Shown in pieces: positions 6,576-52,998 of a DNA stretch of 64,000 bases (position 1 is its first letter; every line of letters begins with the position of its first letter). The notes under the pieces are model-generated. The model saw only the letters and a program-made list of their open reading frames with translations, was not told the DNA's origin and ran no database searches. A program made the translations under genes and the position numbers. The stretch is from the NCBI RefSeq assembly GCF_000746095.1, contig NZ_JQKP01000002.1, positions 124,001 to 188,000 on the forward strand, read 5' to 3'. This DNA is from Ferriphaselus sp. R-1. Its GTDB lineage: Bacteria; Pseudomonadota; Gammaproteobacteria; Burkholderiales; Gallionellaceae.

Positions 6576-7583
6576 ATGCGCATCGGCCCCTACCAGCTCA
6601 AGAACAATCTGATCGTCGCCCCCATGGCGGGCGTGACCGACCGACCTTTCCGCATTCTTTGCAAGAAGATGGGCGCGGGGATGGCCGTGTCCGAGATGGT
6701 GGCTTCGAACTCCCTGCTGTACGGCTCCGAAAAGACCATGCGCCGCGCCAACCACGAGGGCGAGGTCGACCCGATCTCGGTGCAGATCGTCGGGGCCGAC
6801 CCCAAGATGCTGGCCGAGGCGGCGAAATATAACGTGGACAACGGCGCGCAGATCATAGACATCAACATGGGTTGCCCGGCCAAGAAGATCTGCAACGTGA
6901 TGGCAGGCTCAGCGCTGTTGCAGAACGAGCCTTTGGTGCAGACGCTGCTCGAAGCGGTGGTGGGCGCGGTCGATGTGCCGGTGACACTGAAGATCCGTAC
7001 CGGCTGGGACAAGTCCAGTCGCAACGCCATCAACATCGCTCGCATCGCCGAGAGTAGCGGCATCCAGGCGCTGGCCATCCATGGCCGCACCCGCGCCTGC
7101 GGCTACACCGGCGATGCGGAATACGACACCATCGCAGCGGTGAAGGCTGAAGTCCGCATCCCGGTGATCGCCAATGGCGACATCACCACCCCAGAGAAGG
7201 CGCAGTACGTGCTGCAGCACACCGGCGCGGATGCGGTGATGATAGGCCGTGCCGCACAGGGCCGTCCCTGGTTGTTCCGCGAGATCGCTCACTTCATGGC
7301 GACCGGACAGCATCTGCCCGCGCCGCAGGTGGCCGAGATCCGCGCGGTGCTGGTGGCTCATCTACAAGACCTGTACGATTTCTACGGGGAATACAGCGGC
7401 ACGCGCGTCGCGCGCAAGCACATTTCCTGGTACACCAAGGGGCTGCCCGGCTCGGCGCAGTTCCGTCATCACATGAACCAGCTGCCCTCCACGGAAGAGC
7501 AAATGGCGGCGGTGTGTGAATTCTTTGACTTACAACTAGAGCGCGGAGAGCGCCTGCATTACGGGGAGGAGTTGGCGGCATGA
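6576..7583 (+). CDS. dusB: tRNA-dihydrouridine synthase B
   Basis: A 335-residue flavoenzyme that reduces uridine to dihydrouridine in the D-loop of tRNAs. The FMN-binding TIM barrel is recognisable from NNLIVAPMAGVTDRPFR at the start, the catalytic-Cys motif INMGCPAKKICN near residue 95, and VPVTLKIRTGWD, AIHGRTR and PVIANGDITTPEKA further on. The C-terminal tRNA-binding domain follows to the end. Length and motifs match DusB rather than DusA or DusC. A GGAG ribosome-binding site lies seven bases before the ATG. The gene is coupled to fis by a four-base ATGA overlap, the arrangement conserved in many gamma- and betaproteobacteria. Confidence 0.97.
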   Translation: MRIGPYQLKNNLIVAPMAGVTDRPFRILCKKMGAGMAVSEMVASNSLLYGSEKTMRRANHEGEVDPISVQIVGADPKMLAEAAKYNVDNGAQIIDINMGCPAKKICNVMAGSALLQNEPLVQTLLEAVVGAVDVPVTLKIRTGWDKSSRNAINIARIAESSGIQALAIHGRTRACGYTGDAEYDTIAAVKAEVRIPVIANGDITTPEKAQYVLQHTGADAVMIGRAAQGRPWLFREIAHFMATGQHLPAPQVAEIRAVLVAHLQDLYDFYGEYSGTRVARKHISWYTKGLPGSAQFRHHMNQLPSTEEQMAAVCEFFDLQLERGERLHYGEELAA

Positions 7584-7843
7584 GCAAGGAATGTGGCTGC
7601 GGCCCGGTCGGCGAGAACGAGATCGCCCGTTACGTGCGTGATGCGGTGAACGAATATTTCAGCGATCTGGAGGGCGAGCACCCTTCCAGTTCGATCTATG
7701 ACATGGTGGTCCGCTGTGTCGAAAAGCCACTGATCGAGACCGTACTGCATCATGCGGGCGGCAATCAGACCCGCGCCGCCGAGCTGCTCGGCATCAATCG
7801 CAACACCCTGCGCAAGAAGATGCAGGACCTCAAGATCAAATAA
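7580..7843 (+). CDS. fis: Fis family DNA-binding nucleoid protein
   Basis: An 87-residue protein, close to the size of beta/gammaproteobacterial Fis. The N-terminal half has a short Cys/Gly-rich start and the dimerisation helices; the C-terminal helix-turn-helix is clear ([22 protein letters not shown]) and ends in QDLKIK. Fis bends DNA and adjusts transcription of rRNA and growth genes. It begins inside the stop codon of dusB and is followed after 16 bases by purH, so all three may share one transcript. The segment [16 protein letters not shown] is the usual signature before the helix-turn-helix. Confidence 0.96.
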
Positions 7844-7859
7844 CCCACGAAAGACCCTC

Positions 7860-9422
<1,563 letters not shown>

Positions 9423-9458
9423 ATCCGGACTGACCCGACACACGCGACAGGAGGCGAC

Positions 9459-9776
9459 ATGCGTACCACACGACTGCTCAAGATGATGGTGTCGCCCCTG
9501 CTGCTGGCGTTGGGTATGGGTGCGAGCCAAGCGGGCGAGCTGGCCATCGTGCGCTGCAACGCCGAACCCGGCGGTCCGGTGGTGCTGCGCTCGTTCTCTA
9601 TCTCCAACCCTGCACTGATCGCCACGCCCGAATTGGCGGCCAAAGAGAATTGCGCCCTGTTCCTCAAGCAGTTGCAGGACAAGGGTTTCGCCATCACCGG
9701 CGAGTTCGTGTTGCAGGATGCGGGGACCGGATCGAGCGGCACGCCTATCGCATTGATCTACCGCCTGAGCCGGTAG
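9459..9776 (+). CDS. Small predicted periplasmic protein between purH and purD
   Basis: A 105-residue protein with a Sec signal peptide (MVSPLLLALGMGASQAGE, cleavage probably near residue 25). The mature part of about 80 residues has two cysteines (RCNAEP and ENCALF) that could form a disulfide, and ends LIYRLSR. No family is recognised. An AGGAGG-like site lies upstream of the ATG (acaggaggcgac). The position between purH and purD, 36 bases after one and 32 before the other, suggests cotranscription, yet an exported protein has no obvious part in purine synthesis. Coding is supported by ribosome-binding site, signal peptide and fit between genes. Confidence 0.75.
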   Translation: MRTTRLLKMMVSPLLLALGMGASQAGELAIVRCNAEPGGPVVLRSFSISNPALIATPELAAKENCALFLKQLQDKGFAITGEFVLQDAGTGSSGTPIALIYRLSR

Positions 9777-9808
9777 TACGTCCAAACAACAGTATCAGCG
9801 AGTCGAAT

Positions 9809-11080
9809 ATGAAAATTCTAGTGGTGGGTTCCGGTGGTCGTGAACATGCTTTGGCCTGGCGTCTGGCGCAAGGCGAGCGGGTGCAAAAGGTGTTCGTCGC
9901 GCCCGGCAATGCGGGCACAGCGCTGGAAGATGGCCTGGAGAATCTGCCCATCACCGACATCCAAGAGTTGATCGAGTTCGTCAAACGCGAAAGTATCGAA
10001 TTCACCGTGGTCGGGCCGGAAGCGCCACTGGCGGCGGGCATCGTGGATGCCTTCCGCGCCGAGAAGCTGAAGATCTTCGGCCCGACCAAGGCCGCTGCGC
10101 AGCTCGAATCCTCCAAGGACTTCGCCAAGCGCTTCATGACCCGCCACCACATCCCCACCGCGTTCTTCGAGACGTTCAGCGATGTCGAGTTGGCGCGCGA
10201 TTACGTGGACAAACACGGCGCGCCCATCGTCATCAAGGCTGACGGCCTGGCCGCCGGCAAGGGCGTGGTAGTGGCGATGACCGAGATGGAGGCCTATGCC
10301 GCCATCGACATGATGCTGGCCGACAATAGCTTCGGCGACGCGGGCGCGCGGGTGGTGATCGAGGCGTTTCTGGAAGGCGAAGAGGCCAGCTTCATCGTCA
10401 TGGTCGACGGCAAGAACGTGCTGCCGCTGGCCACCAGCCAGGATCACAAACGCCTGCTCGACCGTGACCACGGCCCCAACACCGGCGGCATGGGCGCGTA
10501 TTCGCCCGCGCCCGTCGTCACGCCCACCATTCACGCCAAGGCCATTCGCGAAGTCATCCTGCCGGTGGTTCGCGGCATGGAAGCCGAGGGCGTGACCTAC
10601 ACCGGCTTCCTCTACGCCGGGCTGATGATCTCGCCGGACGGCGGCCTCAAGGTGCTGGAATTCAACTGCCGCATGGGCGACCCCGAGACCCAGCCCATCA
10701 TGCTGCGCCTGAAGAGCGATCTGTCGGTGCTGATGGAGCACGCCATCGCCGGAACGCTGGACCAGGTCGAAGCTGAATGGGACAGACGCACCGCGCTGGG
10801 CGTGGTGATGGCTGCCGCCAACTATCCCGACACCCCGCGCAAAGGTGATGTCATCACCGGCCTGCCCAAACCGCAGGACGATGCCCACGTGTTCCACGCC
10901 GGAACCACCATGCAAGACGGCAAGGTCGTCACCAACGGTGGCCGCGTGCTGTGCGTCACCGCGCTGGGCGACATGGTCAAGCGCGCCCAGCAGCGCGCCT
11001 ACGAAGTCGCCGACGGCATCCACTTCGACGGTGCCCAGATGCGCCGCGACATCGGCTACCGAGCGATCGCACGCAGGTAA
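9809..11080 (+). CDS. purD: Phosphoribosylamine-glycine ligase (GAR synthetase)
   Basis: A 423-residue ATP-grasp enzyme joining phosphoribosylamine and glycine, the second step of purine synthesis. The start [19 protein letters not shown] is the hallmark N-terminus. ATP-grasp elements are visible: [18 protein letters not shown], the conserved [26 protein letters not shown] and [11 protein letters not shown]. The C-terminal domain ([12 protein letters not shown]) is complete and the protein ends GYRAIARR. The ATG at 9809 is chosen because it gives the conserved N-terminus; the frame is open upstream but overlaps the small secreted protein gene. The gene faces the leftward kinase gene across 117 bases. 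Confidence 0.98.
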
Positions 11081-13892: not shown

Positions 13893-16511
13893 TCAAATCG
13901 CCGGAATAAAGATAGAGACCGTCGTCCCGACGCCCAGCGTACTTGCTATGTGAAGCTTACCTCGATGCAACTCAACGATCTCCTTGACGATACTCATCCC
14001 AAGTCCGGTCCCTGGAATGCTGCCGGAAGTATCCGCACGATAGAATCTTTCACAGACCCGAGCGACTTGGCCCTTGGTCATCCCGATACCATGATCGGTG
14101 ATACGCATCACGCAATAATGCACGGCATCATGCACCTCGGACGCCAGACTGAGCATGACATCACCCCCACCTGGCGAGTACTTGTAAGCATTGCTCAACA
14201 CATTGCTCAGTGCCTGACCGATCTTGCTCCGATCGACATTGAAGAACAGAGGGGTATCGGGCATCTGCAAAATCAACGGCCTGTGTCCGTCGATGTTGAA
14301 ATTGGCAGATACCTCCTGGCATACCTCGCGGGCTTCGTTCTTCTTGTAGACAAAATCCTTACCCCGACGGGCCTCTATCCTGGAAATATCCAGCAGCTCA
14401 TTGATGATGCTGTTGACCAATGCCGACTGCCTGAAGACCACTTCCAGCATTTCCTTCCGATCCCCCTCGGGATAGGACCGATTCAGCAACAGCTCGGTAT
14501 AGCCATAGATCGAGGCCATCGGAGTGCGCAGCTCATGAGCCGCTGTCGACAAGAATTCACTTTTTATCTGCGCCACCTCCCACTCGTAGGTGACATCCCG
14601 GAAATACACTATGCGAGACAGGGTATGTGAGCGGCAGCTCCGCAGCGACATCTCCAGCACCTTGCCTGTACGGGCGATGTGGATCGTCTCTGCACGTTTC
14701 TTACTATCACCCTTATCTTCAATAGTCCGCTTCTGGGTCGAAAGGTCTAGAAAGACGGTCCCAGCCTGGCAGCTCGCTGACATCAATTTGACAAACTTCG
14801 ACTCACTAAGCCCCATGACCTCAGACAGCTCCAGGCCGACCAGTGTGGAGAACGCCGGGTTCGCGTATTTGACCAGCCCCTGATTATCGAACGAAATCAG
14901 GCCATCAGGACTCAGGGCAAAGATGGTATCCAGCTGCTCATTGCGGTCCTGCAATGCCATCTCAGCATCCCGCCGGTCGGTGATGTCAGTATGTGACCCA
15001 ACCATGCGCAAGGGTTTGCCATCGGCATCGAATATCGCCTTGCCCCGATCCAATATCCACTTGTATCCGCCATCCTTGCACTTCAGTCTGTGCTCGGTCT
15101 GGTAAAACGCTGTATGGCCAGCCAAGTGTGCGTCAATGGCATCCATCACACTAGCGATATCGTCCGGATGGACTCGACTGCGCCACTCCTCTAGCTGATT
15201 TGGCAGTTCCTCCTCGGAAAATCCGAGCATGGATTTCCAGCGGGTGGAGTAGAACACCGCTCCATCCTTAATGTTCCAGTCCCAGATACCATCATTGTTA
15301 CCTTCTAGCGCCAGCTGCCAGCGTAGCTCGCTGTTTGCCAGAGCCTGTGCCATTTGATGCCGCTCAGTGACATCACGAGCAAAGCCGACCGTGCCGATGA
15401 CCTCCCCCGTGGGCGCAAAGACCGGATGCTTGTATGTTTCTATCCAGATTCGGGTACCTTCCGCTTCGAGCGGCTCCTCAACAAATTTCTCGCGTTGGCT
15501 TTGCATCACCTCCTGGTCGTCCGACCGGTAGCTGAGTGCGAGCTCTTCGGGCCACAGATCAAGGTCAGACAGGCCGACCACACTATCGGGATCAGACCGT
15601 CCACTAGCCTCGGCAAAACGGCGATTGACAGTCAGGAAGCGACTCTCCCCATCCTTCAGCCAAATCATGAACGGAAAGTTGTCGAGCGTGGCACGCAAGT
15701 AGGACTCCCGTCGCTCCAACTCTTGTGCCGCGAGGATGCGCTCAGAGATGTCGATTACACTACCGACCATGCGTAATGCATTTCCAGCCTCATCCCGCTC
15801 AACCACATCCCCTCGGTCGAGTACCCAGATAGTGGCTCCATCGGAACGATGCATGCGATGCTCGCTACGGTAAGGCCCCCCGTTGGACAGACAGGCCTCG
15901 ATCGATCGCCTGACCCTCGACACATCCTCTTGGTGGACAAGTGCCGAAAAGATCTCAAATGGATGGCGCGCGTAGCGCTCATCGAACCCAAGTAGCTTGC
16001 ACCATCTGACATTGTGAGTGACGGTCCCGGAGCGGATATCCCAATCCCAAATGCCTTCCTGGGTAACATCCAACACATACTGCAAACGGCGCTCACTTTC
16101 CTCCAGATCATTCTTGGCCCGACGCAAGTCGGTAACATCCGTGGCGATCACCAATATCTGCGGGGAGCCATCTGGTGCCAGCAACGGTTTCTTGATCGAT
16201 TGGTAGTAATGCGTCTCACCGGTCACGGCATCCGTGGACTCCTCCATCACGATCCGCGTCTCGTTCTGCGACATGATTTCGCGCACGTTTTGTAGATAAA
16301 ACTCGACCTGCTCCCGATTGGGGTTGAACGCACCATCATCCTTGCCCACCAACTCGTTCGGGGTCGTCCCATACAGGTTGGCCAACGCCCGATTTCCCAG
16401 GATGAACTTACCATTCCAGTCCTTAAGTAGAATGATGTTGGGGTTCTCGTCGATAACCGTTCTCAGTAAGTCGTAACCCTCGTCACCTACCACTTCCAGC
16501 CCCTCACTCAT
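13893..16511 (-). CDS. Cytoplasmic sensor histidine kinase with five PAS domains
   Basis: About 872 residues from the ATG at 16511 (a GTG at 16526 is also possible). No membrane helix is seen. Five PAS domains in tandem are recognisable from repeated elements such as GIWDWDIRSG, GIWDWNIKDG, RMVGSVIDIS and RMVGSHTDIT; the second and fourth are near-duplicates of the PAS_3 type. HisKA follows with STAAHELRTPMASIYGY (His about residue 660) and HATPase with SNAYKYSPGGG and GTGLGMSIVKEIVE. The HisKA/HATPase part resembles that of the kinase at 11198-13009. With no attached receiver, it presumably signals to receivers in the same operon. The upstream HD-GYP gene ends 39 bases before the start. Confidence 0.9.
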   Translation of the reverse strand: MSEGLEVVGDEGYDLLRTVIDENPNIILLKDWNGKFILGNRALANLYGTTPNELVGKDDGAFNPNREQVEFYLQNVREIMSQNETRIVMEESTDAVTGETHYYQSIKKPLLAPDGSPQILVIATDVTDLRRAKNDLEESERRLQYVLDVTQEGIWDWDIRSGTVTHNVRWCKLLGFDERYARHPFEIFSALVHQEDVSRVRRSIEACLSNGGPYRSEHRMHRSDGATIWVLDRGDVVERDEAGNALRMVGSVIDISERILAAQELERRESYLRATLDNFPFMIWLKDGESRFLTVNRRFAEASGRSDPDSVVGLSDLDLWPEELALSYRSDDQEVMQSQREKFVEEPLEAEGTRIWIETYKHPVFAPTGEVIGTVGFARDVTERHQMAQALANSELRWQLALEGNNDGIWDWNIKDGAVFYSTRWKSMLGFSEEELPNQLEEWRSRVHPDDIASVMDAIDAHLAGHTAFYQTEHRLKCKDGGYKWILDRGKAIFDADGKPLRMVGSHTDITDRRDAEMALQDRNEQLDTIFALSPDGLISFDNQGLVKYANPAFSTLVGLELSEVMGLSESKFVKLMSASCQAGTVFLDLSTQKRTIEDKGDSKKRAETIHIARTGKVLEMSLRSCRSHTLSRIVYFRDVTYEWEVAQIKSEFLSTAAHELRTPMASIYGYTELLLNRSYPEGDRKEMLEVVFRQSALVNSIINELLDISRIEARRGKDFVYKKNEAREVCQEVSANFNIDGHRPLILQMPDTPLFFNVDRSKIGQALSNVLSNAYKYSPGGGDVMLSLASEVHDAVHYCVMRITDHGIGMTKGQVARVCERFYRADTSGSIPGTGLGMSIVKEIVELHRGKLHIASTLGVGTTVSIFIPAI

Positions 16512-44556: not shown

Positions 44557-44678
44557 CCCAAGATTCCAGCCCTCACCGTTGCCGGTGCGGGGCTTGAGCA
44601 GGACAAGCGCGGCATCGACCCGCGTTGCCTTGCTCTATCAATGCACATCACTTGATGTGGGAGACTCAGGAGTTAGCG

Positions 44679-45482
44679 ATGACAAACAAGAACCAATACA
44701 CTGTGGGCAAGGAACCGTTCTATCAGGCCCAGGGCGATGAAGTGAAACTGTACGAGGCCGCTTACGCCGCCCGTCTGCCGGTGATGGTGAAAGGCCCGAC
44801 CGGCTGCGGCAAATCGCGCTTCATTGAATACATGGCCTGGAAGCTCAACAAGCCACTGATCACGGTGGCGTGTAACGAAGACATGACCGCTTCCGACCTG
44901 GTCGGGCGCTATCTGTTGGATGCCAACGGCACCCGCTGGCTGGACGGCCCGCTGACCACGGCAGCGCGCATCGGTGCGATCTGTTATCTGGACGAAGTGG
45001 TGGAAGCGCGTCAGGACACCACCGTGGTGATCCACCCGCTGACCGACCACCGCCGCACCCTGCCGCTGGACAAAAAGGGCGAGCTGATCGAAGCCCACCC
45101 TGACTTCCAGTTGGTCATCTCTTACAACCCCGGCTACCAGAACCTGATGAAGGATCTGAAGCAATCCACCAAACAGCGCTTCACCGCATTCGAGTTCGAT
45201 TACCCCGATGCCGCGCTCGAATCGGCGATCCTGGCCAAGGAAACCGGGCTGGATGCGGCGGTGTGCGACAAGCTGGTGCAAATCGGCCAAGCCGCGCGCA
45301 ACCTCAAGGGACATGGCCTGGATGAAGGCATCTCGACCCGTTTGCTGGTCTATGCGGCCACGTTGATCCGGAATGGCGTGGATGCCAAGGCGGCTTGCCG
45401 CATGGCGCTGGTGCGTCCGATCACCGACGATGCCGACATCCGCGACACGCTCGATCACGCGATCGATGCTTCGTTCGCCTGA
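44679..45482 (+). CDS. cbbQ: CbbQ, MoxR-type AAA+ RuBisCO activase subunit
   Basis: A 267-residue AAA+ ATPase that forms hexamers and, with CbbO, removes inhibitory sugar phosphates from RuBisCO. Walker A is VKGPTGCGKSRFIEYMAWKL, Walker B ICYLDEVVEARQDTT, and a sensor region is LVISYNPGYQNLMKDLKQST. The preceding region (EPFYQAQGDEVKLYEAAYAARLPV) is characteristic for CbbQ/NorQ. The ATG at 44679 has CAGGAG upstream; the frame is open earlier but without a ribosome-binding site. It follows cbbM after a terminator and precedes cbbO by 32 bases. Confidence 0.96.
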   Translation: MTNKNQYTVGKEPFYQAQGDEVKLYEAAYAARLPVMVKGPTGCGKSRFIEYMAWKLNKPLITVACNEDMTASDLVGRYLLDANGTRWLDGPLTTAARIGAICYLDEVVEARQDTTVVIHPLTDHRRTLPLDKKGELIEAHPDFQLVISYNPGYQNLMKDLKQSTKQRFTAFEFDYPDAALESAILAKETGLDAAVCDKLVQIGQAARNLKGHGLDEGISTRLLVYAATLIRNGVDAKAACRMALVRPITDDADIRDTLDHAIDASFA

Positions 45483-45514
45483 GATCAGAACGGAAACCGG
45501 CAGGAGGTGAAGTG

Positions 45515-47788
45515 ATGACGGATGTGGTGGCGGAAAGAACCGAAGAGGCGGCTAGGTATTGGGAGCAACTGGGTTGCCGGTTCTCCCAGGTCAATGCCGT
45601 CTTTGACGAGTGCATCAAGGAAGCCCAGGCGCTGCTGTCGAAAGCGGGCCTAGCAGCCTATATCGAGAATGCCCGCATCATCGGCAAGATGGGGCGTGGC
45701 GCGGAACCATTGCTGGTCTATCTGGAAGAGGCGCCCAGCGTAGCCAGCATCGTCGGGGAGCATGCGCTGATCACTCTGCGCGAATTCTCCGAGTACATGT
45801 CCACGCATACCAACTTCAAGGCGATCGTGCCGTTCCTGCAAACCAGCGGGGCCATCGCACGCCGTTTGCACGACGACAAGATGTTCCGCCGCTACATCGA
45901 GATCGTCCGCGACATGATGGATCGCACCTCTGGCTCGATCCACGGTCACCACACGACCTTCGCCAGTCCCGGGTTGCCCGACCTGCTCAAACAATCGCCC
46001 AAGCTGTTGAGCGTCCTGTCCTTGCAGGGATTCCAGAACTGGATCGAGTACGGCATCAAGTACTACAACAATCATCCTGAGCGACAGGAGGAGTATTTCC
46101 GCCTGGAATCCGCCGATGCCATTGCGGTGATGCAACGCGAGCGGCATGGCACCTTGCTGGTGGACAACGAGCGCAAACTGGATGCCTACATCCGCGCACT
46201 TTGGAACGACAGCGACTACCTCATCCCGTATTCCGTCGCCTTCGCCAGCCTGCGCAAGGCTATGCCTTATTACACCGACGACGGCATCCGCTTGCCCGAT
46301 GTCTATGACGATCTCAATGGCGTGTCGGGCATAGACCGTTACCGCGCTGCGTTGGCTCACATGGCCGCGCATCGTCGCTGGTCGCAACAGATGATCGTGG
46401 ACAACTGGAGCCCGTTCCAGCGCGCCAGCGTCGAGGTATTCGAAGACTCCCGCGTGGAATATCTGGCCTGCCAGAAATATCCGGGTCTGCGCAAGTTGTT
46501 CTTGGCACTGCACCCTGTTCCCCGAGAGGAAGACCTTCAGCTCGAAGAACAGGGCATCTCGGTGTTCCGGTTGCGGCTCGCCATGCTGTCGCGCGCCATT
46601 CTCGATCCGGACTACGCCTACCAGAACGAGCATGTCCGTGAGTTCGTCAGACGCTTCCATGAATTGATGGCGACAGGCGCATCGACCAGCGCAGCGATGG
46701 CTTCGATCGCCCTGGCGTTCATCGCGCGCACACGCGGCCAGCGCGACCTGTCGGCCCAAATGTATTTCGACAATACCGAGGTGGACTACCGCGACGATAA
46801 CCGTCACTTGTGGATCTACATCGAAGAGAGCGACGAAGACGAGATGTTCGAGCATCTCGACAAGCGCCAGAGCACGGAAGCGGAGTTGCACGCGCTGCCT
46901 CCCCGTCACTACGACGAGTGGGATTACAACGCACAGAACTATCGTCCGGACTGGGTGAGCGTGTATGAAGCGCTGCATCCGCGCGGCAATCCGGCGATGA
47001 TCGACGCTCTGCTGACCAAGCATGCCAAACTGACCAAGCGCCTGAAAGCGATGCTGGAGTTGCTCAAGCCACAGGATAAGGTTCGCATCCGCTATCAGGA
47101 GGAAGGCTCGGAGCTCGATCTGGATGTCGCCATCCGCTCCTTGATCGACTACAAGAGCGGCAGTTCGCCCGACCCGCGCATCAACATGTCGCATCGCACC
47201 GATGGCCGCAGTTTCGCCATCACCTTGCTGCTTGACCTGTCGCAGTCGCTAGGCGAGAAGGCCGCTGGCAGCAACCAGACCATCCTCGAACTCAGTCAGG
47301 AGGCCGTTTCCTTGCTGGCCTGGTCGGTGCAGCAGGTTGGTGATTCGTTCGCTATCGGCGGTTTCCACTCCAACACCCGCCACGATGTGCGTTACTACCA
47401 TCTGAAGGGCTTCAAGGAGCCTTGGGGTGATGAGGTCAAATCGCGCCTGGCGGCGATGCAGGCAGGCTACTCCACCCGCATGGGTGCGGCGGTACGCCAC
47501 GCCGGTCACTATCTGAAAACGCAACAGGCGGACAAGAAGCTGCTGCTGATCCTCACCGACGGTCAGCCGTCCGACGTGGATACCAAGGACGACAATTTGC
47601 TGATCGCCGACGCGCGTCAGGCAGTGAAGGAGTTGGATCAGGATGGAATCTATAGTTACTGCATCAACCTCGACCCCAAGGCTGACGAGTATGTGGCAGA
47701 CATCTTCGGCAAGCAGTACACGGTGATCGATAATGTTGCCCGCTTGCCGGAACAGCTGCCTCAGCTATTCATCTCGCTGACCAAATGA
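45515..47788 (+). CDS. cbbO: CbbO, von Willebrand factor A RuBisCO activase adaptor
   Basis: A 757-residue partner of CbbQ. The long N-terminal helical part carries repeated segments (LLVYLEEAPSVASIVG and others), and the C-terminal von Willebrand A domain starts near residue 560 with the metal-site motif LLDLSQSLGEK (D-x-S-x-S), followed by LLLILTDGQPSDVDTKDD. CbbO binds RuBisCO and couples it to the ATPase. The start ATG at 45515 has a perfect AGGAGG seven bases upstream; an upstream part of the open frame overlaps cbbQ and is not used. A hairpin just after the stop separates it from the convergent dps-family gene. Confidence 0.95.
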   Translation: MTDVVAERTEEAARYWEQLGCRFSQVNAVFDECIKEAQALLSKAGLAAYIENARIIGKMGRGAEPLLVYLEEAPSVASIVGEHALITLREFSEYMSTHTNFKAIVPFLQTSGAIARRLHDDKMFRRYIEIVRDMMDRTSGSIHGHHTTFASPGLPDLLKQSPKLLSVLSLQGFQNWIEYGIKYYNNHPERQEEYFRLESADAIAVMQRERHGTLLVDNERKLDAYIRALWNDSDYLIPYSVAFASLRKAMPYYTDDGIRLPDVYDDLNGVSGIDRYRAALAHMAAHRRWSQQMIVDNWSPFQRASVEVFEDSRVEYLACQKYPGLRKLFLALHPVPREEDLQLEEQGISVFRLRLAMLSRAILDPDYAYQNEHVREFVRRFHELMATGASTSAAMASIALAFIARTRGQRDLSAQMYFDNTEVDYRDDNRHLWIYIEESDEDEMFEHLDKRQSTEAELHALPPRHYDEWDYNAQNYRPDWVSVYEALHPRGNPAMIDALLTKHAKLTKRLKAMLELLKPQDKVRIRYQEEGSELDLDVAIRSLIDYKSGSSPDPRINMSHRTDGRSFAITLLLDLSQSLGEKAAGSNQTILELSQEAVSLLAWSVQQVGDSFAIGGFHSNTRHDVRYYHLKGFKEPWGDEVKSRLAAMQAGYSTRMGAAVRHAGHYLKTQQADKKLLLILTDGQPSDVDTKDDNLLIADARQAVKELDQDGIYSYCINLDPKADEYVADIFGKQYTVIDNVARLPEQLPQLFISLTK

Positions 47789-47817: not shown

Positions 47818-48312
47818 TCACTCTTCCAACAGGCTGCGCAGCATCCACGCATTCTTTTCGTGGATCTGCATCCGCTGGGTGAGGATGTCGGCGGTCGGCT
47901 GATCGTTTGCCTTATCCACCACCGGGAACATGGCACGGGCCGTGCGCACCACGGTCTCCTGTCCGGCGATAAGCTGGCGGATCATTTCCTTGGCGTTGGG
48001 TGCACCCTCGCTGTCGGCAATACGAGTCAGCGCAGCAAACTCGCGATACGTACCCGGTGCAGGAAAACCTAGCGCACGAATACGCTCGGCCAGCAGATCG
48101 ACCGCCAGCCATTGCTCGTTGTACATATCCATGAACAACAGATGCAAAGTTTGGAACATCGGTCCGGTCACGTTCCAGTGGTAGTTGTGAGTCTTCAGGT
48201 AAAGCGTGTACGTATCCGCCAGCAAATGCTTCAAGCCGTCGGCGATCTCGGCACGCTGTTTGTCGGAAAGCCCGATATCGATATGAGCCAAGTTGATCTT
48301 TTTGCTTGCCAT
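47818..48312 (-). CDS. Dps-family DNA-protection/ferritin-like protein
   Basis: A 164-residue ferritin-like protein of the Dps family. Dodecamers oxidise ferrous iron with peroxide and protect DNA. The ferroxidase motif is visible: LKTHNYHWNVTGPMFQTLHLLFMDMYNEQW, with His and Asp/Glu ligands, and AERIRALGFPAPGTYREF follows. The ATG at 48312 (MASKKINLAHIDIG) has GGAGG five bases upstream; an ATG at 48324 is less likely. The Lys-containing N-terminus could bind DNA. In an organism growing by iron oxidation such a protein would be useful, but the link to the RuBisCO operon is only by location. Confidence 0.93.
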   Translation of the reverse strand: MASKKINLAHIDIGLSDKQRAEIADGLKHLLADTYTLYLKTHNYHWNVTGPMFQTLHLLFMDMYNEQWLAVDLLAERIRALGFPAPGTYREFAALTRIADSEGAPNAKEMIRQLIAGQETVVRTARAMFPVVDKANDQPTADILTQRMQIHEKNAWMLRSLLEE

Positions 48313-48391
48313 GATGCCCTCCATGAGAAAGACCGGGGATGCTCGCTACAGCCAATCTTGAGCGACCGCCGAGCAGCAGCCCCCGTGCCGT

Positions 48392-48419
48392 ATCCTAGCA
48401 CGACCAAACAAACTCGCAA
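48392..48419 (-). promoter_or_regulatory. Putative promoter of the dps-family gene
   Basis: Minus-strand TTGCGA (48414-48419) and TAGGAT (48392-48397) are separated by 16 bases, each matching the consensus at four positions. No OxyR or Fur box was recognised around it. Confidence 0.35.
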
Positions 48420-48440
48420 CGCCACACACTGAACGAACGC

Positions 48441-48494
48441 TTGACGGCCCCCCAGTAATGCGCTCTACTTACCCCACTATAGAAGATGGGGTAA
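48441..48494 (+). promoter_or_regulatory. Putative promoter with overlapping inverted repeat before the PstS-like gene
   Basis: The 305-base gap 48313-48617 holds TTGACG (48441-48446), 17 bases, then TCTACT (48464-48469). At the expected start point lies a perfect dyad, TTACCCCA (48469-48476) and TGGGGTAA (48487-48494), with a 10-base spacer, which could be an operator. About 120 bases of leader follow with two small hairpins (GTGC/GCAC and CTGCC/GGCAG) and no recognised riboswitch core. Confidence 0.35.
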
Positions 48495-48617
48495 AAAACC
48501 CACACTAATAGGGGATGTTGGCACTCGGGTCGACATGTGCATCCCGCGCACTCAGTTAGCTGCCGGGGCAGGGGAAGCGACATGATGGGAGTCCCTTTGG
48601 AATCGAGGAGAGTACAT

Positions 48618-49055
48618 TTGCCCAGGCAAATCACGCGAAATAGACCGCTCCAACTGATCTACGGCATCGTTCTCGCCCTGAGTCCGCTCGCCGCAGATAC
48701 CGCTGAAGTGATCGTTCACCGGGAAGTAAGCACGGCCACACTGACCGTAAGCATGGCTCGCGCCATGTTCGGCATGCGGCAGAACAAATGGCCGGATGGT
48801 ACGCCATTGAAAGTGTTCGTATTACCCGATGCGCATCCCCTGCACAAGGCATTGTGCAGGGAGGTCTTAGATGTTTTCCCCTACCAGTTACGGCAATCCT
48901 GGGATCGGCAGGTGTATTCCGGTACCGGTCAAGCGCCAACTGAGTTGACTTCCGAAGAACAGATGATCAGCCAAGTGTCCGCGACACCGGGCGCGATCGG
49001 CTATGTCAAGAAAGCGAGTAACTCCGATGCGGTACGCATTGTCCCTGTACATTAG
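48618..49055 (+). CDS. Short PstS-like periplasmic binding protein
   Basis: A 145-residue protein from a TTG start at 48618, which has GAGGAG seven bases upstream and gives a signal peptide (NRPLQLIYGIVLALSPLAADT). The mature part of about 115 residues matches the short PstS-like proteins: EVIVHREVSTATLTVSMARAMF, KWPDGTPLKVFVLPD, HKALCREVL, YSGTGQAPTELTSEEQMI and ATPGAIGYVKKAS. This is about half a normal phosphate-binding protein, so the ligand site may be formed with a partner. It overlaps the following porin gene by 29 bases and is linked to a cyclic di-GMP phosphodiesterase gene; no transporter genes are nearby. A sensory role is inferred. Confidence 0.8.
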   Translation: MPRQITRNRPLQLIYGIVLALSPLAADTAEVIVHREVSTATLTVSMARAMFGMRQNKWPDGTPLKVFVLPDAHPLHKALCREVLDVFPYQLRQSWDRQVYSGTGQAPTELTSEEQMISQVSATPGAIGYVKKASNSDAVRIVPVH

Positions 49056-50211
49056 CACCTTGTTAGTCTCAGCCAGCGCTCTGGCCGAGGGGCTCCCTGA
49101 GAACATACAGGTCCACGGCTTTGTCAGTCAGTCAGCCGCCTGGACCAACCACAACCAAGTCGGCGGTAACCAGCCGGGCAAAGTCGGCACAGATCTACAC
49201 GAAATCGGCGGCAACCTGTCCTGGCGCCCGGATGCGGACTGGCTGGTATCAGGCCAATTACTGTCCCGCCTCGCGGGGGCCAGCGACAACGGGAACGTAC
49301 GTGTCGACTACGCCTTCGTCGATCACACCTTGCTCGAATTCGAAGGGCAGCGGGTAGGAGTACGGGTCGGCAAGATCAAGATCCCCTTCGGTTTCTACAA
49401 CACCACTCGCGATGTGGCACACACCCGTCCCGGCGTGATACCGCCACAGTCCATCTATTACGACCAACTGCGCAGTTCTTTCCTAGCCGCCCCGGGCATG
49501 GCCGTGTACGGGGACGGCGAGATGACCAGCGGAGGCCTGCATTGGCAAGTCAGCATCATCCGTCCGGAGATCAATGACCGCAATCTGACCATCCTCATGG
49601 TCGACCAGCAACCCGGACACTTCAATGGCCTGCCCTCTATACTCGGTCAGGCGATCTATGACTTCGATGGCGGGCGCTGGCGCACCGGCCTGACGATGAG
49701 CAACATGAAGATGCAGTACCAGCCGGGCGTGGGGGATTTTCTGCATGCGGGCCACATCACCCTGAACACGGGTGTATTGTCGCTGGAGCGTAACAGTGAA
49801 GAGTGGACTCACACGGTCGAATACGCGCTCACTCACCAGATCCGCAATGGATTCAACGTGCCATTTGCTCCTATTCTGGACATGGGCACTACGATCGAGG
49901 CCGCTTACTTCCAGACTCAATGGCGCTTCGTGCAGCAGTGGCAGGCCCTGGCCCGCTTCGACATGCTGTATCTGAACAGCCGTGACCGTAACGGTCTGCA
50001 GTTTGCTGCCGCGACCGGGATGCCCGCAGCGCAGCGCTATGCCCGCGACTGGACCTTGGGATTGCGTTTCGACCCCAGCAAGGACTGGTCGCTGTTCGCC
50101 GAATGGCACCGTGTCAGCGGGGCAGCCTGGCTATCGAAGCTCGACAACCCTCCTGCCGCACTGGCGACCCCGTGGAACATGCTGCTGCTGCAAGCCGCGT
50201 GGCGGTTCTAG
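49027..50211 (+). CDS. Outer-membrane beta-barrel protein (porin-like)
   Basis: A 394-residue protein with signal peptide (MRYALSLYISTLLVSASALAEG). The mature sequence alternates polar and hydrophobic residues, has aromatic-rich strands (GRWRTGLTMSNMKMQYQ, AAYFQTQWRFVQQWQALARF) and ends in LLQAAWRF, the terminal Phe typical for outer-membrane barrel insertion. Segments such as VHGFVSQSAAWTNHN and VRVGKIKIPFGFYNTTRDVAHTRPG recall porins of the DcaP/OprO kind, but I do not assign a family. It lies between the PstS-like gene (29-base overlap) and the phosphodiesterase gene (12 bases). It could supply ligand to the periplasmic protein. Confidence 0.8.
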   Translation: MRYALSLYISTLLVSASALAEGLPENIQVHGFVSQSAAWTNHNQVGGNQPGKVGTDLHEIGGNLSWRPDADWLVSGQLLSRLAGASDNGNVRVDYAFVDHTLLEFEGQRVGVRVGKIKIPFGFYNTTRDVAHTRPGVIPPQSIYYDQLRSSFLAAPGMAVYGDGEMTSGGLHWQVSIIRPEINDRNLTILMVDQQPGHFNGLPSILGQAIYDFDGGRWRTGLTMSNMKMQYQPGVGDFLHAGHITLNTGVLSLERNSEEWTHTVEYALTHQIRNGFNVPFAPILDMGTTIEAAYFQTQWRFVQQWQALARFDMLYLNSRDRNGLQFAAATGMPAAQRYARDWTLGLRFDPSKDWSLFAEWHRVSGAAWLSKLDNPPAALATPWNMLLLQAAWRF

Positions 50212-50223
50212 GAGGAGAGCAAC

Positions 50224-52998
50224 ATGGCCCCCCCCTCCAGGCCCCGGGATTTCCTTGGCATCCGCTGGAAGATCCTGCTTTTGGCAGGTCTGGTATTGTG
50301 CGTGACCGGCAGTCTCTTGATCTGGCAACAGTACCATGCCGAGATGCGGCAGTTCGAGGCCGATCAGGCCAGCCAGCGTCGACGCACCGAGGAGCTGGTC
50401 GACCGGCTGTTCGAGCTACAGTCGGAACGGCTGCAGATGCAGGCGCGCATGTTTGCCAGTATCCCCAAGGTCAGACAGGATATGGCCTCCCACGATGCGA
50501 CCGACTTGGCGCAGGCCATCGACCCCCTGTGGTCCGAGCTGAATATGGGCCAAGGCCTGCTGGATGTCAGCATCTACGATGAACAGCAGAACCGGCTGGT
50601 CAACCGAGGCGAGCGCAAGACGACCTTGCAAGTGGGGATGGCCAAGATGGTCGCCTTGCACGAGACTCCGTTAAGCTGGCTGGAATGCTCCGAGGAATGC
50701 GCCTACCAGTCCGCCATCCCGATCACCTACCGTGGCAACACGCTAGGTGTCATCGCCGTGCAAGGCAGCCTGGAGAACATCATCCTCGACCTGCGACAGC
50801 TGTCTGGGGCTGAAGTCGCGGTGTTCACCGGCCACTCCGACCACCCCGATTCCCCGCTGCGCGGAATGAGCCTTTTGACCGCCAGCGGCGGCGAGGCGAT
50901 GCGTGAATTGCTGCACTCAGCCACCTCGATCCCGTGGCAGAACAACCACACACAGATAAACCACGGCGAACAGGTATTCCAGTTGATGTTGCTGCCGGTA
51001 CCGGCAAGTAACGGCGTACGCGCTTATCTGGCGTTCTCCGCCGACATCACCTCACAGGTCCGACTCATCCAGACCACGGCACAACGCAGTGTGCTGCTGG
51101 GTAGCGTGGCCTTGGCATTGGCGCTGCTCCTGCTCTATCTGATGCTGAGACCGACCATGCGCCGCATCGAACACGTCACTGGCATCATGCCGCTACTGGG
51201 CGAGGAGCGGTTCGGCGAGATCCGGGATAGCTACTCGAATCGGCCACGCAGTCGTTTCCCGGACGAAACCGATGAACTGGAAGAACTGGCGGTCACCCTC
51301 TCCAACCGGCTCGAAGGGTTGCGCAACGAGTCGCGCGAACATCTGCGCGACCTGGCCACGCAGGCAAAACTGTTGGAACAGGAGCGCGACCTGTTCACCA
51401 GCCTGTTCAATACCGCCCCCGTATTGATCCTCACCTATGGCCGGGACGGCTGCATCCGCATGGCAAACGAAGCCGCACAGCAAATCGGCGACATGGGTGA
51501 ACTCGGACTCATCGGTCAGGATTTCGCCACCTTGTTTCTGGATGCCTGGCAACGCCCTAGCCATGCAGCCGAGATGGCGAGCATGGTCTCGGGCGGCATA
51601 CACCACGGGGAATCGAGCCTGGAATCCTTCGACGGACAGAAACACGACATCGTCTGGTTCCATACCCGTCTGGCCCATGAGGCAGGCGGAACGCCCGCCT
51701 ATCTGTCGGTAGGCATGGATGTCACTGAGCACCGGCAAATCAAACACCAACTGCACAAACTGGCCGAATGCGATGTGGTCACCGGCCTGCTCAACCGCCG
51801 CGCCTTCAAACGGGAACTCGACCAGCTATTGTCCACCACCACGTACGGGGTACTCCTGGTCTGCGACCTGGACCAGTTCAAGGTGATCAACGAAGCTGGC
51901 GGTCATGAAGCAGGTGATGCCATGCTGATGGCTTTGGCCGAGTATCTGGAGGCACTTGTACCCTCGCCCCGGCTGATGGCCAGACTGGGCAGCGATGAGT
52001 TCGCGCTGATGTACCCCGCACTCACCATCACCGAGGCCATCGGATTGGCCCAGCGCTTGAACCACATCAGGCCCCAATGCGCCGAATCCCAGCTCATGCC
52101 CCACGTCCTGTCGACCTGCGTGGGGATAGTGAACTTCCCGGAACACGGCGGCGATTCCGATACCTTGCTGGGCAGCGCCCAGTTCGCCCTGCTCCAGGCA
52201 CAGAACCGTGGGCATGGTTCCTGGCACCTCTATTCCGCCGACGACCCCCAGCGCAGTTCGATGGGCAAACGGGCCTACTGGAAACGGGAAGTCGAGCAGG
52301 CGCTGGAGGAAGACCGTTTGGTCCTGCACTATCAGCCCATCCGCAACATCATCAAGGGCACCATCAGCCATTACGAGGCACTGGTGCGTCTGGTCGGTGC
52401 AGACGGCACACTGATCATGCCCGGAGAGTTCATCGATGCAGCGGAGAGCACCGGCCTGATTCGCCGGGTCGATCGCTGGGTGGTCAACGCCGTGGCGGAG
52501 TTCGTCGCCGGTCGGCCCGACATCAAGGTGGCGCTCAATTTGTCAGGACGCAGTTTCGACGACGATTCTGTCTTCGAGATCGTCAGGACAGCGCTCAAGC
52601 GCCATGGGGTCGAGGGAAAAAACATACAGCTCGAAATCACCGAGACCGCCGCGCTCGGGAACATGAGCAAGGCCACCCGAACCATGGAGAAGTTACGCAG
52701 CCTGGGCTGCGCCTTCGGCTTGGACGATTTCGGTGTCGGCTACAGCTCCTTCCAGTACCTGAAGGAGTTGCCGATGGACTTCGTCAAGATAGATGGCTCG
52801 TTCATCCGGGGACTGACCCGTAACGCCGACGATGCCGCATTCGTGCGCGCCCTGCACAATGCGGTCAAGAGCTATGGCAAGACCACCGTGGCAGAGTTCG
52901 TGGAAGATGAGGAGACACTGGCCCTGCTGCGCGAGATCGGGGTCGATTGCGCGCAGGGCTATCTGATCGGCCGCCCCTCGCCCAAGCTGATCAATTAG
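50224..52998 (+). CDS. Membrane sensor phosphodiesterase (periplasmic sensor-PAS-GGDEF-EAL)
   Basis: A 924-residue protein. Helix 1 (about 17-36) and helix 2 (about 288-310) enclose a large periplasmic Cache-like sensor; a HAMP-like stretch, PAS (about 385-500), GGDEF-type (about 515-670) and EAL (about 685-920) domains follow. The GGDEF active site reads GSDEF (about 589), so cyclase activity is doubtful. The EAL domain is intact: HYEALVRL (about 718), LNLSGRSF, IQLEITETAAL, DDFGVGYSSFQYLKELP and FVKIDGSFI. Hydrolysis of cyclic di-GMP is therefore likely. An AGGAGG site precedes the ATG. Being last in the PstS-like/porin/phosphodiesterase trio, it is the likely output. Its stop overlaps the convergent gtrA-like gene by eight bases. 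Confidence 0.92.
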   Translation: MAPPSRPRDFLGIRWKILLLAGLVLCVTGSLLIWQQYHAEMRQFEADQASQRRRTEELVDRLFELQSERLQMQARMFASIPKVRQDMASHDATDLAQAIDPLWSELNMGQGLLDVSIYDEQQNRLVNRGERKTTLQVGMAKMVALHETPLSWLECSEECAYQSAIPITYRGNTLGVIAVQGSLENIILDLRQLSGAEVAVFTGHSDHPDSPLRGMSLLTASGGEAMRELLHSATSIPWQNNHTQINHGEQVFQLMLLPVPASNGVRAYLAFSADITSQVRLIQTTAQRSVLLGSVALALALLLLYLMLRPTMRRIEHVTGIMPLLGEERFGEIRDSYSNRPRSRFPDETDELEELAVTLSNRLEGLRNESREHLRDLATQAKLLEQERDLFTSLFNTAPVLILTYGRDGCIRMANEAAQQIGDMGELGLIGQDFATLFLDAWQRPSHAAEMASMVSGGIHHGESSLESFDGQKHDIVWFHTRLAHEAGGTPAYLSVGMDVTEHRQIKHQLHKLAECDVVTGLLNRRAFKRELDQLLSTTTYGVLLVCDLDQFKVINEAGGHEAGDAMLMALAEYLEALVPSPRLMARLGSDEFALMYPALTITEAIGLAQRLNHIRPQCAESQLMPHVLSTCVGIVNFPEHGGDSDTLLGSAQFALLQAQNRGHGSWHLYSADDPQRSSMGKRAYWKREVEQALEEDRLVLHYQPIRNIIKGTISHYEALVRLVGADGTLIMPGEFIDAAESTGLIRRVDRWVVNAVAEFVAGRPDIKVALNLSGRSFDDDSVFEIVRTALKRHGVEGKNIQLEITETAALGNMSKATRTMEKLRSLGCAFGLDDFGVGYSSFQYLKELPMDFVKIDGSFIRGLTRNADDAAFVRALHNAVKSYGKTTVAEFVEDEETLALLREIGVDCAQGYLIGRPSPKLIN

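Follow-up and report, generated by a model that had tools for sequence, protein, structure and literature searches.

To our knowledge, outside inputs are known for few of the enzymes that act on cyclic di-guanosine monophosphate (c-di-GMP). NspS-MbaA of Vibrio cholerae consists of a relative of periplasmic binding proteins (PBPs) encoded with a membrane GGDEF-EAL protein, and NspS is a full PotD-type flytrap. In AioX/ArrX-type systems a PstS/PhnD-type binding protein serves a sensor kinase; the binding proteins are full-length and have no barrel partner. MbaA is described as a periplasmic polyamine sensor (PMC8079147), and YfiBNR of Pseudomonas aeruginosa is presented (PMC4655355, PMC4887326) as a set of outer-membrane, periplasmic and inner-membrane parts controlling c-di-GMP. 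The locus described here lies in a 64,000-nucleotide stretch of the Ferriphaselus sp. R-1 genome (contig NZ_JQKP01000002.1), referred to as the window, and consists of three rightward genes encoding a half-length PstS relative (P0001, the mini-PstS), a predicted outer-membrane barrel (P0002) and a Cache-PAS-GGDEF-EAL sensor (P0003), designated the trio. The trio is proposed, at a probability of roughly 0.57, to be one operon for a trans-envelope sensor in which a c-di-GMP phosphodiesterase receives, through its Cache domain, a signal coming from the barrel and mini-PstS.

The genes are packed with a 29-base overlap between P0001 and P0002 and a 12-base gap between P0002 and P0003, and their coordinates, order, strand and packing are as given in the initial annotation of the sequence (Table 1). 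Terminator-like sites were not found on the + strand between the genes, and the single + strand promoter-like site within the unit, at 49614, is at chance level (both strands: 3 found, 2.0 expected); we infer that P0001, P0002 and P0003 are co-transcribed as one operon. A P0001 relative occurs in 38 of 100 sampled genomes of the host family, 18 of which, the host included, carry a close-type relative (identity of 44 % or more, E of 1e-30 or better). In all 18 host-family loci that were read at an identity of 40 % or more, own included, a P0002 relative stands directly behind the mini-PstS; two further matches of that kind have no locus in this reading. The named set comprises the best 80 of at least 257 confirmed relatives among GTDB contigs, ranked by mini-PstS similarity and therefore describing the close type, and 69 of these best 80 carry mini-PstS, barrel and a sensor with EAL and GGDEF domains. 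Eight of the remaining 11 have the pair without a matching sensor open reading frame (ORF), seven of them at a contig end, L132 has a barrel and a sensor ORF without a recognised output, and L095 ends behind the mini-PstS. The barrel thus accompanies the mini-PstS, with or without the sensor, in 77 of the 80 loci and also in L132, but not in L121 or the truncated L095. The grouping is more than chance, the complete trio being conserved in 69 of these 80 relatives. The co-occurrence in other genomes on which the initial annotation had staked its proposal was found in the family and named sets alike, and for the pair in 36 of 37 loci of a wider sample (below), so that the linked unit it had described across three compartments, with an outer-membrane barrel, periplasmic mini-PstS and inner-membrane sensor, is backed by co-conserved genes.

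The 80 rows are labelled Beta- or Gammaproteobacteria or unplaced Proteobacteria, plus one Nitrospirota metagenome-assembled genome of the Manganitrophaceae (L134), in which synthase (see below), mini-PstS, two barrels and sensor stand in a row, reflecting either transfer across phyla or a binning error. L121, from Thiorhodococcus minor, has a mini-PstS followed by a dCache_3-GGDEF-EAL sensor at 6914-10218. Longest-ORF gene calls misread some loci, and the barrels of L035, L040, L042, L046 and L047 were masked by other ORFs. A 988-amino-acid minus-strand gene called behind the barrel of L032 was rejected as antisense, a P0003 relative being found there by tblastn; L072, on a 124664-base contig like L032, has a normal sensor. 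A plasmid DNA search with the locus gave no match, and no description of the trio was found in the open-licence literature (subscription journals and preprints being outside this scope).

Across the class, the mini-PstS profile matches 104 of 370 genomes, and a sample of 37 loci was taken by hand as every fourth listed match. In 36 of the 37, the mini-PstS has a same-strand neighbour that matches barrel models built from the host's family, models that within the window match P0002 only; the gaps range from -89 to 33 bases, with the mini-PstS first in 12 and the barrel first in 24. Nineteen third genes, including that of L222, which has no barrel, were scanned and yielded GGDEF in 5, EAL in 4, MCP in 4 and HisKA in 2. 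With the pair present in 36 of 37 loci and a third gene that differs between loci or is absent, the nearly constant core consists of mini-PstS and barrel, to which a sensor is often, but not always, added. In a related genus, g9, a histidine-kinase-motif protein stands behind 13 of the 14 pairs fetched, the exception (L034) being a GGDEF-EAL protein. Domain counts in alignment A3, which include one false protein (the L032 antisense ORF) and some opposite-strand neighbours, are HisKA 16 of 30, GGDEF 9, EAL 8 and MCP 2. A profile of the periplasmic parts of 68 GGDEF-EAL sensors matches approximately the first 345 residues of all five g9 kinases tested (E 2e-75 to 2e-82), with no match to the distant-type sensors searched alongside them. 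Since this profile finds the N-terminus of kinases that stand behind the same pair, mini-PstS, barrel and dCache_3 domain appear, from sequence comparison, to be kept together as an input cassette while the catalytic part is swapped. The cassette is widespread and portable, and it combines an outer-membrane part and half a binding protein with outputs that can be exchanged.

Several loci show further arrangements. Repeated mini-PstS genes or mini-PstS/barrel pairs occur in L187, L192, L197 and L200, with three mini-PstS genes in L197 and, in L192, a second tandem pair that is followed by a sensor. In the two histidine-kinase loci checked, a Cache-HAMP-GGDEF gene lies behind the kinase (L037, 1781-3424, - strand; L039, 1836-3476, - strand). 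Two contigs from different genomes, G403:C18 (L214) and G464:C99 (L217), are both 89748 bases long, possibly by coincidence.

The pair could also serve uptake, with barrel and half-PBP importing a nutrient and the co-transcribed phosphodiesterase receiving no signal from them, a reading that agrees with those loci of the class sample in which no operonic sensor accompanies the pair. Four points make it unlikely: the distances of the pair and of the sensor's periplasmic domain go together, the sensor input domain stays with the pair as the output changes, the few annotated recurrent neighbour families are not transporters (most neighbour clusters being unannotated), and half a PBP would seem a poor carrier. 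The distances were compared in 69 trios, with L071, L103, L132, L142 and L150 left out, by a mirror-tree test in which those of the mini-PstS gave a partial r of 0.45 with the periplasmic domain and 0.06 with the cytoplasmic part, each corrected for the other, and those of the barrel 0.56 and 0.18. Some findings weigh against a trans-envelope sensor. This test was made without an unlinked reference gene and is supporting rather than decisive, and the 80 named loci, being ranked by mini-PstS similarity, are rich in Nitrosomonadaceae. L121 retains a mini-PstS and a sensor, but its 14 kb contain no match to the barrel, and L127 keeps the pair without a matching sensor. In 17 of the 37 class loci (a count that includes L197 and not L209) there is no co-directional gene of at least 200 amino acids within 350 bases behind the pair, and the pair can therefore exist without an operonic sensor.

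The initial annotation had read the three products as a PstS-like half-protein, a porin-like barrel and a Cache-PAS-GGDEF-EAL sensor with a c-di-GMP output, and profiles and models bear out each of these readings. In P0003, dCache_3 (50-210), PAS_4 (395-504), GGDEF (515-664) and EAL (688-918) all score over the Pfam cut-offs. Nine positions of the EAL domain, which we take to be its catalytic residues (E718, N772, E804, E807, D834, D835, K855, E891 and Q911), are invariant across all 73 sensors aligned. Of these sensors, 55 have a canonical GGDEF motif and 18 a non-canonical one, among them P0003, with RLGSDEF (GSDEF) in place of an intact GG(D/E)EF. Some non-canonical GGDEF motifs are active in other proteins. 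The output of P0003 is most likely c-di-GMP degradation, because the EAL residues are intact and the GGDEF motif is degenerate. The 73-row set does not hold L103 and L132, and two pairs of rows, L033/L074 and L034/L133, are probably the same contigs twice (contigs equal in length; branch lengths 0 to 0.43 and 0 to 0.001), so that the 73 sensors and 69 trios each include up to two repeats.

The AlphaFold model of P0002 is a 16-strand barrel with a predicted local distance difference test score (pLDDT) of 88.1. Its Foldseek matches are porins, headed by DcaP (E 7e-14) and including Omp32, OmpC and, at rank 14, OprP, and are moderate, with TM-scores by query length of 0.45-0.59 and 8-13 % identity in the listed matches. 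The Pfam family Porin_O_P scores 16.9 bits with P0002, below its cut-off of 20.9, and matches 7 of 31 partner barrels at E 0.01. With model and fold matches supporting this weak Pfam match, P0002 is predicted to be an outer-membrane 16-strand porin-like barrel.

P0001 matches only PBP_like_2 in Pfam, over profile positions 95-187 of 267 and below the cut-off (16.7 against 27 bits); this is also the sole family found at E 0.01 in the mini-PstS family, in 19 of 33 rows. An AlphaFold model made from the 33-row family alignment has a pLDDT of 87.6, and its residues 27-145 superpose on one lobe of PstS (residues 77-210 of Escherichia coli PstS; best Z 15.9). A phmmer search of the Protein Data Bank with P0001 alone gave chance matches only; a search with the family profile picks up PstS chains at the sequence level (best E 1.5e-11). 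The description as half a PstS is correct because P0001 models on one PstS lobe and the family profile finds PstS, and the protein is predicted to be lobe II, secreted to the periplasm as a single lobe without the phosphate loop. The mature length of 115 residues first given rests on the choice of cleavage site; by eye, 115-117 fits.

The phosphate theme of the initial annotation did not hold up. In PstS we take the phosphate loop to be Arg135 and Ser139-Gly140-Thr141. The Arg position is Leu (L69) in P0001 and Arg in 3 of 33 family members, and the Ser-Gly-Thr position carries H73-P74-L75 in P0001, with Ser-Gly-Thr/Ser in none of the 33. No Pho-box-like site was found upstream of the unit when the window was scanned, allowing up to 3 mismatches, with what we presume to be the Pho-box pattern; the sole match, at 14766, is far from the trio and below chance (1 found, 5.08 expected). 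A full-length PstS gene lies elsewhere in the host genome, on contig C4, and behind it in the same direction lie three genes (318, 283 and 257 amino acids) which, judged by size and not by annotation, are pstCAB-like. Phosphate is disfavoured because the loop is missing, there is no Pho-box-like site and a full-length PstS with three following genes is present elsewhere. A mini-PstS that binds phosphate or another oxyanion and reports to the sensor, with an OprP-like pore, would be in keeping with the PstS-related fold of P0001 and the weak Porin_O_P match of P0002, and position 76, adjoining the old loop, is basic (R, H or K) in all 33 members, which would allow for another anionic ligand. 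It is nevertheless very improbable, given the single lobe, the replaced loop, the genomic setting just described and a barrel with no overall anion bias (29 K/R, 33 D/E). Small PstS-like proteins of this kind are a warning against assuming phosphate binding.

In the trans-envelope sensor proposed, an extracellular or outer-membrane cue would act on, or pass through, P0002, and P0001 would dock on the barrel, on the dCache_3 domain of P0003 or on both, as an adaptor or ligand-presenting subunit and not a self-closing flytrap. A single lobe is unable to clamp shut on a ligand in the manner of a flytrap and may therefore depend on the surface of a partner, which would account for its being paired with the barrel. 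The Cache domain would then switch the cytoplasmic PAS-GGDEF-EAL part, in which the degenerate GGDEF domain may be regulatory, and the switched P0003 would lower c-di-GMP. Lower c-di-GMP would favour dispersal or motility over matrix production. The formation of a complex, the direction of the signal and the ligand are what we infer here.

A candidate ligand for the family is suggested by its neighbours. Clustering of the genes flanking the 80 named loci gave one strong extra cluster, in 41 loci, the next being in 18, 16 and 10. It corresponds to TIGR03694, the PEP-CTERM/exosortase system-associated acyltransferase (over cut-off in 5 of 5 tested), which by profile is present in 43 of the 80, mostly upstream of the trio and, in 8 loci labelled Halomonadaceae, downstream of the sensor. 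Of the 31 close-type genomes (A4 profile, 99 bits or more) in the class sample, which was not chosen for the synthase, 20 have it, compared with 34 of the 339 other genomes (odds ratio 16.3, Fisher p 1.6e-11, all Fisher tests here ignoring shared descent). It lies within 6 kb in 12 of the 31, upstream co-directional, divergent or downstream, and elsewhere in the other 8 of the 20. For genomes that have only the distant-type pair there is no comparable association (synthase in 10 of 73, against 24 of 266; p 0.17). In the host family the synthase is over cut-off in 11 of 100 genomes, all 11 among the 18 with a close-type mini-PstS, and in g9 it is in 11 of 13 genomes with a close-type mini-PstS and 0 of 6 without (p 0.001; three of these six are less than 90 % complete), often on the same contig approximately 24-26 kb off (e.g. 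G008, G026, G032).

A paper by Craig, Cherry and Brady from 2011 reportedly concerns the exosortase link of N-acyl amino acid synthases. A Neisseria protein annotated under the TIGR03694 name makes N-acyl amides, and the family is described as one of N-acyl amino acid synthases (PMC9762135); their physiological role is called unclear, and their resemblance to autoinducer synthases noted, in PMC4897644. No paper linking GGDEF or a porin to an N-acyl amino acid synthase was found in the open-licence literature. The leading candidates for a ligand of the family are N-acyl amino acids, on evidence that comes from relatives and not from the window's own locus. Tentatively, and with doubt outweighing belief, long-chain N-acyl amino acids may have a dedicated receptor in barrel, half-PBP and dCache_3 sensor, synthase and trio together making a complete signal-and-receptor circuit that sets c-di-GMP; the host's trio would then be a branch with receptor and phosphodiesterase only, which either listens to neighbours or has taken on another task. 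If functional, the synthase link would give a testable answer to the purpose of N-acyl amino acids, a question described as open in PMC4897644.

By profile search the host genome has no TIGR03694 match and no EpsH exosortase match, and TIGR03694 also lacks a match in the two other genomes sampled from the host's genus. The cue would therefore come from outside or be a different one. In the sensor tree, a quick one with a midpoint root, several long branches and two probable repeats, P0003 falls in a 20-row group beyond a branch with a Shimodaira-Hasegawa-like approximate likelihood ratio test (SH-aLRT) value of 100, and none of the 20 has the synthase in its fetched locus. All 40 synthase-linked sensors have a canonical GGDEF motif, compared with 15 of the 33 other sensors. 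The window's version is probably a receptor-only, and probably phosphodiesterase-only, branch, since the sampled genomes of the host genus have no TIGR03694 match, the tree group of P0003 has no synthase in its fetched loci and the canonical GGDEF motif tracks the synthase.

The synthase link might instead only reflect exosortase and exopolysaccharide (EPS) loci, the barrel being a YfiB-like receptor for exopolysaccharide or envelope load and the mini-PstS its relay. Exosortase A-associated EPS genes do lie near trios: TIGR03098 and TIGR03099 are both over cut-off at 600-5809 of L102 (Nitrosomonas halophila), upstream of the trio, with an amidotransferase below the TIGR03108 cut-off, and neighbour clusters holding TIGR03098 and TIGR03099 genes occur in 18 and 16 of the 80 loci. 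A methanotroph mutant in an annotated synthase is also described (PMC11072679) as lacking the usual polysaccharide band, but without growth in that set-up. This alternative is unlikely, as the host keeps the trio with neither the synthase nor EpsH.

The trio is flanked by a divergent ferritin-like gene on one side and a convergent gene with a GtrA domain on the other (Table 1). The upstream DNA is not well conserved on comparison with four relatives. A TTACCCC/GGGGTAA palindrome noticed by eye at approximately 48470-48494 was not returned by a repeat search and was dropped. The AAA+ and VWA genes farther upstream presumably resemble CbbQO or NorQD pairs.

Table 1 Features of the trio and its upstream surroundings in the window
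Feature	Position	Strand	Remarks
AAA+ gene of CbbQ/NirQ/NorQ type, then large VWA-domain gene	44670-47788	+	
Ferritin-like (Dps-type) gene	47818-48324	-	Divergent from trio, common upstream region
Intergenic region	48325-48617	.	Common to trio and divergent ferritin-like gene; presumed unit promoter
P0001, mini-PstS	48618-49055	+	145-amino-acid precursor, TTG start, GAGGAG upstream
P0002, predicted outer-membrane barrel with signal peptide	49027-50211	+	394 amino acids, ATG start at 49027
P0003, inner-membrane sensor	50224-52998	+	924 amino acids, ATG start at 50224, GGAGGAG upstream

Compared with its nearest single-protein relatives, P0001 is like PstS in lobe II but lacks the two-lobed flytrap (there is no lobe I), the phosphate loop and pstCAB or other transporter genes alongside, and P0002 shares the 16-strand barrel of OprP/OprO and DcaP-type porins, with its Porin_O_P sequence match below cut-off. 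NspS-MbaA is alike in outline, a binding-protein relative being encoded in the same unit as a membrane GGDEF-EAL protein, but in the trio a barrel stands between the two genes and belongs to the unit, and a single PstS-type lobe replaces the complete binding protein. In AioX/ArrX-type systems a PstS-type binder likewise serves a sensor, whereas the trio has a half-length binder and a barrel. The likeness to YfiBNR lies in three parts, three compartments and control of c-di-GMP; YfiB, however, is a lipoprotein and the output of that system a cyclase, as against a barrel and, most likely, an EAL phosphodiesterase. In Pfam, P0001 has no YfiR-family match (only PBP_like_2 at E up to 1), and the structural comparison of P0001 did not bring up YfiR, an absence that excludes nothing. 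With regard to the TIGR03694/exosortase system, the synthase often adjoins close-type trios but is absent, like EpsH, from the host genome. A circuit of synthase and trio would resemble quorum sensing, with the difference that the signal is read through the entire envelope. Because it has no full binding protein, no YfiR-type protein and, by sequence, no cyclase output, the trio stands outside both NspS-MbaA and YfiBNR; it works like the PBP-assisted sensors and like the YfiBNR relay, and belongs to neither.

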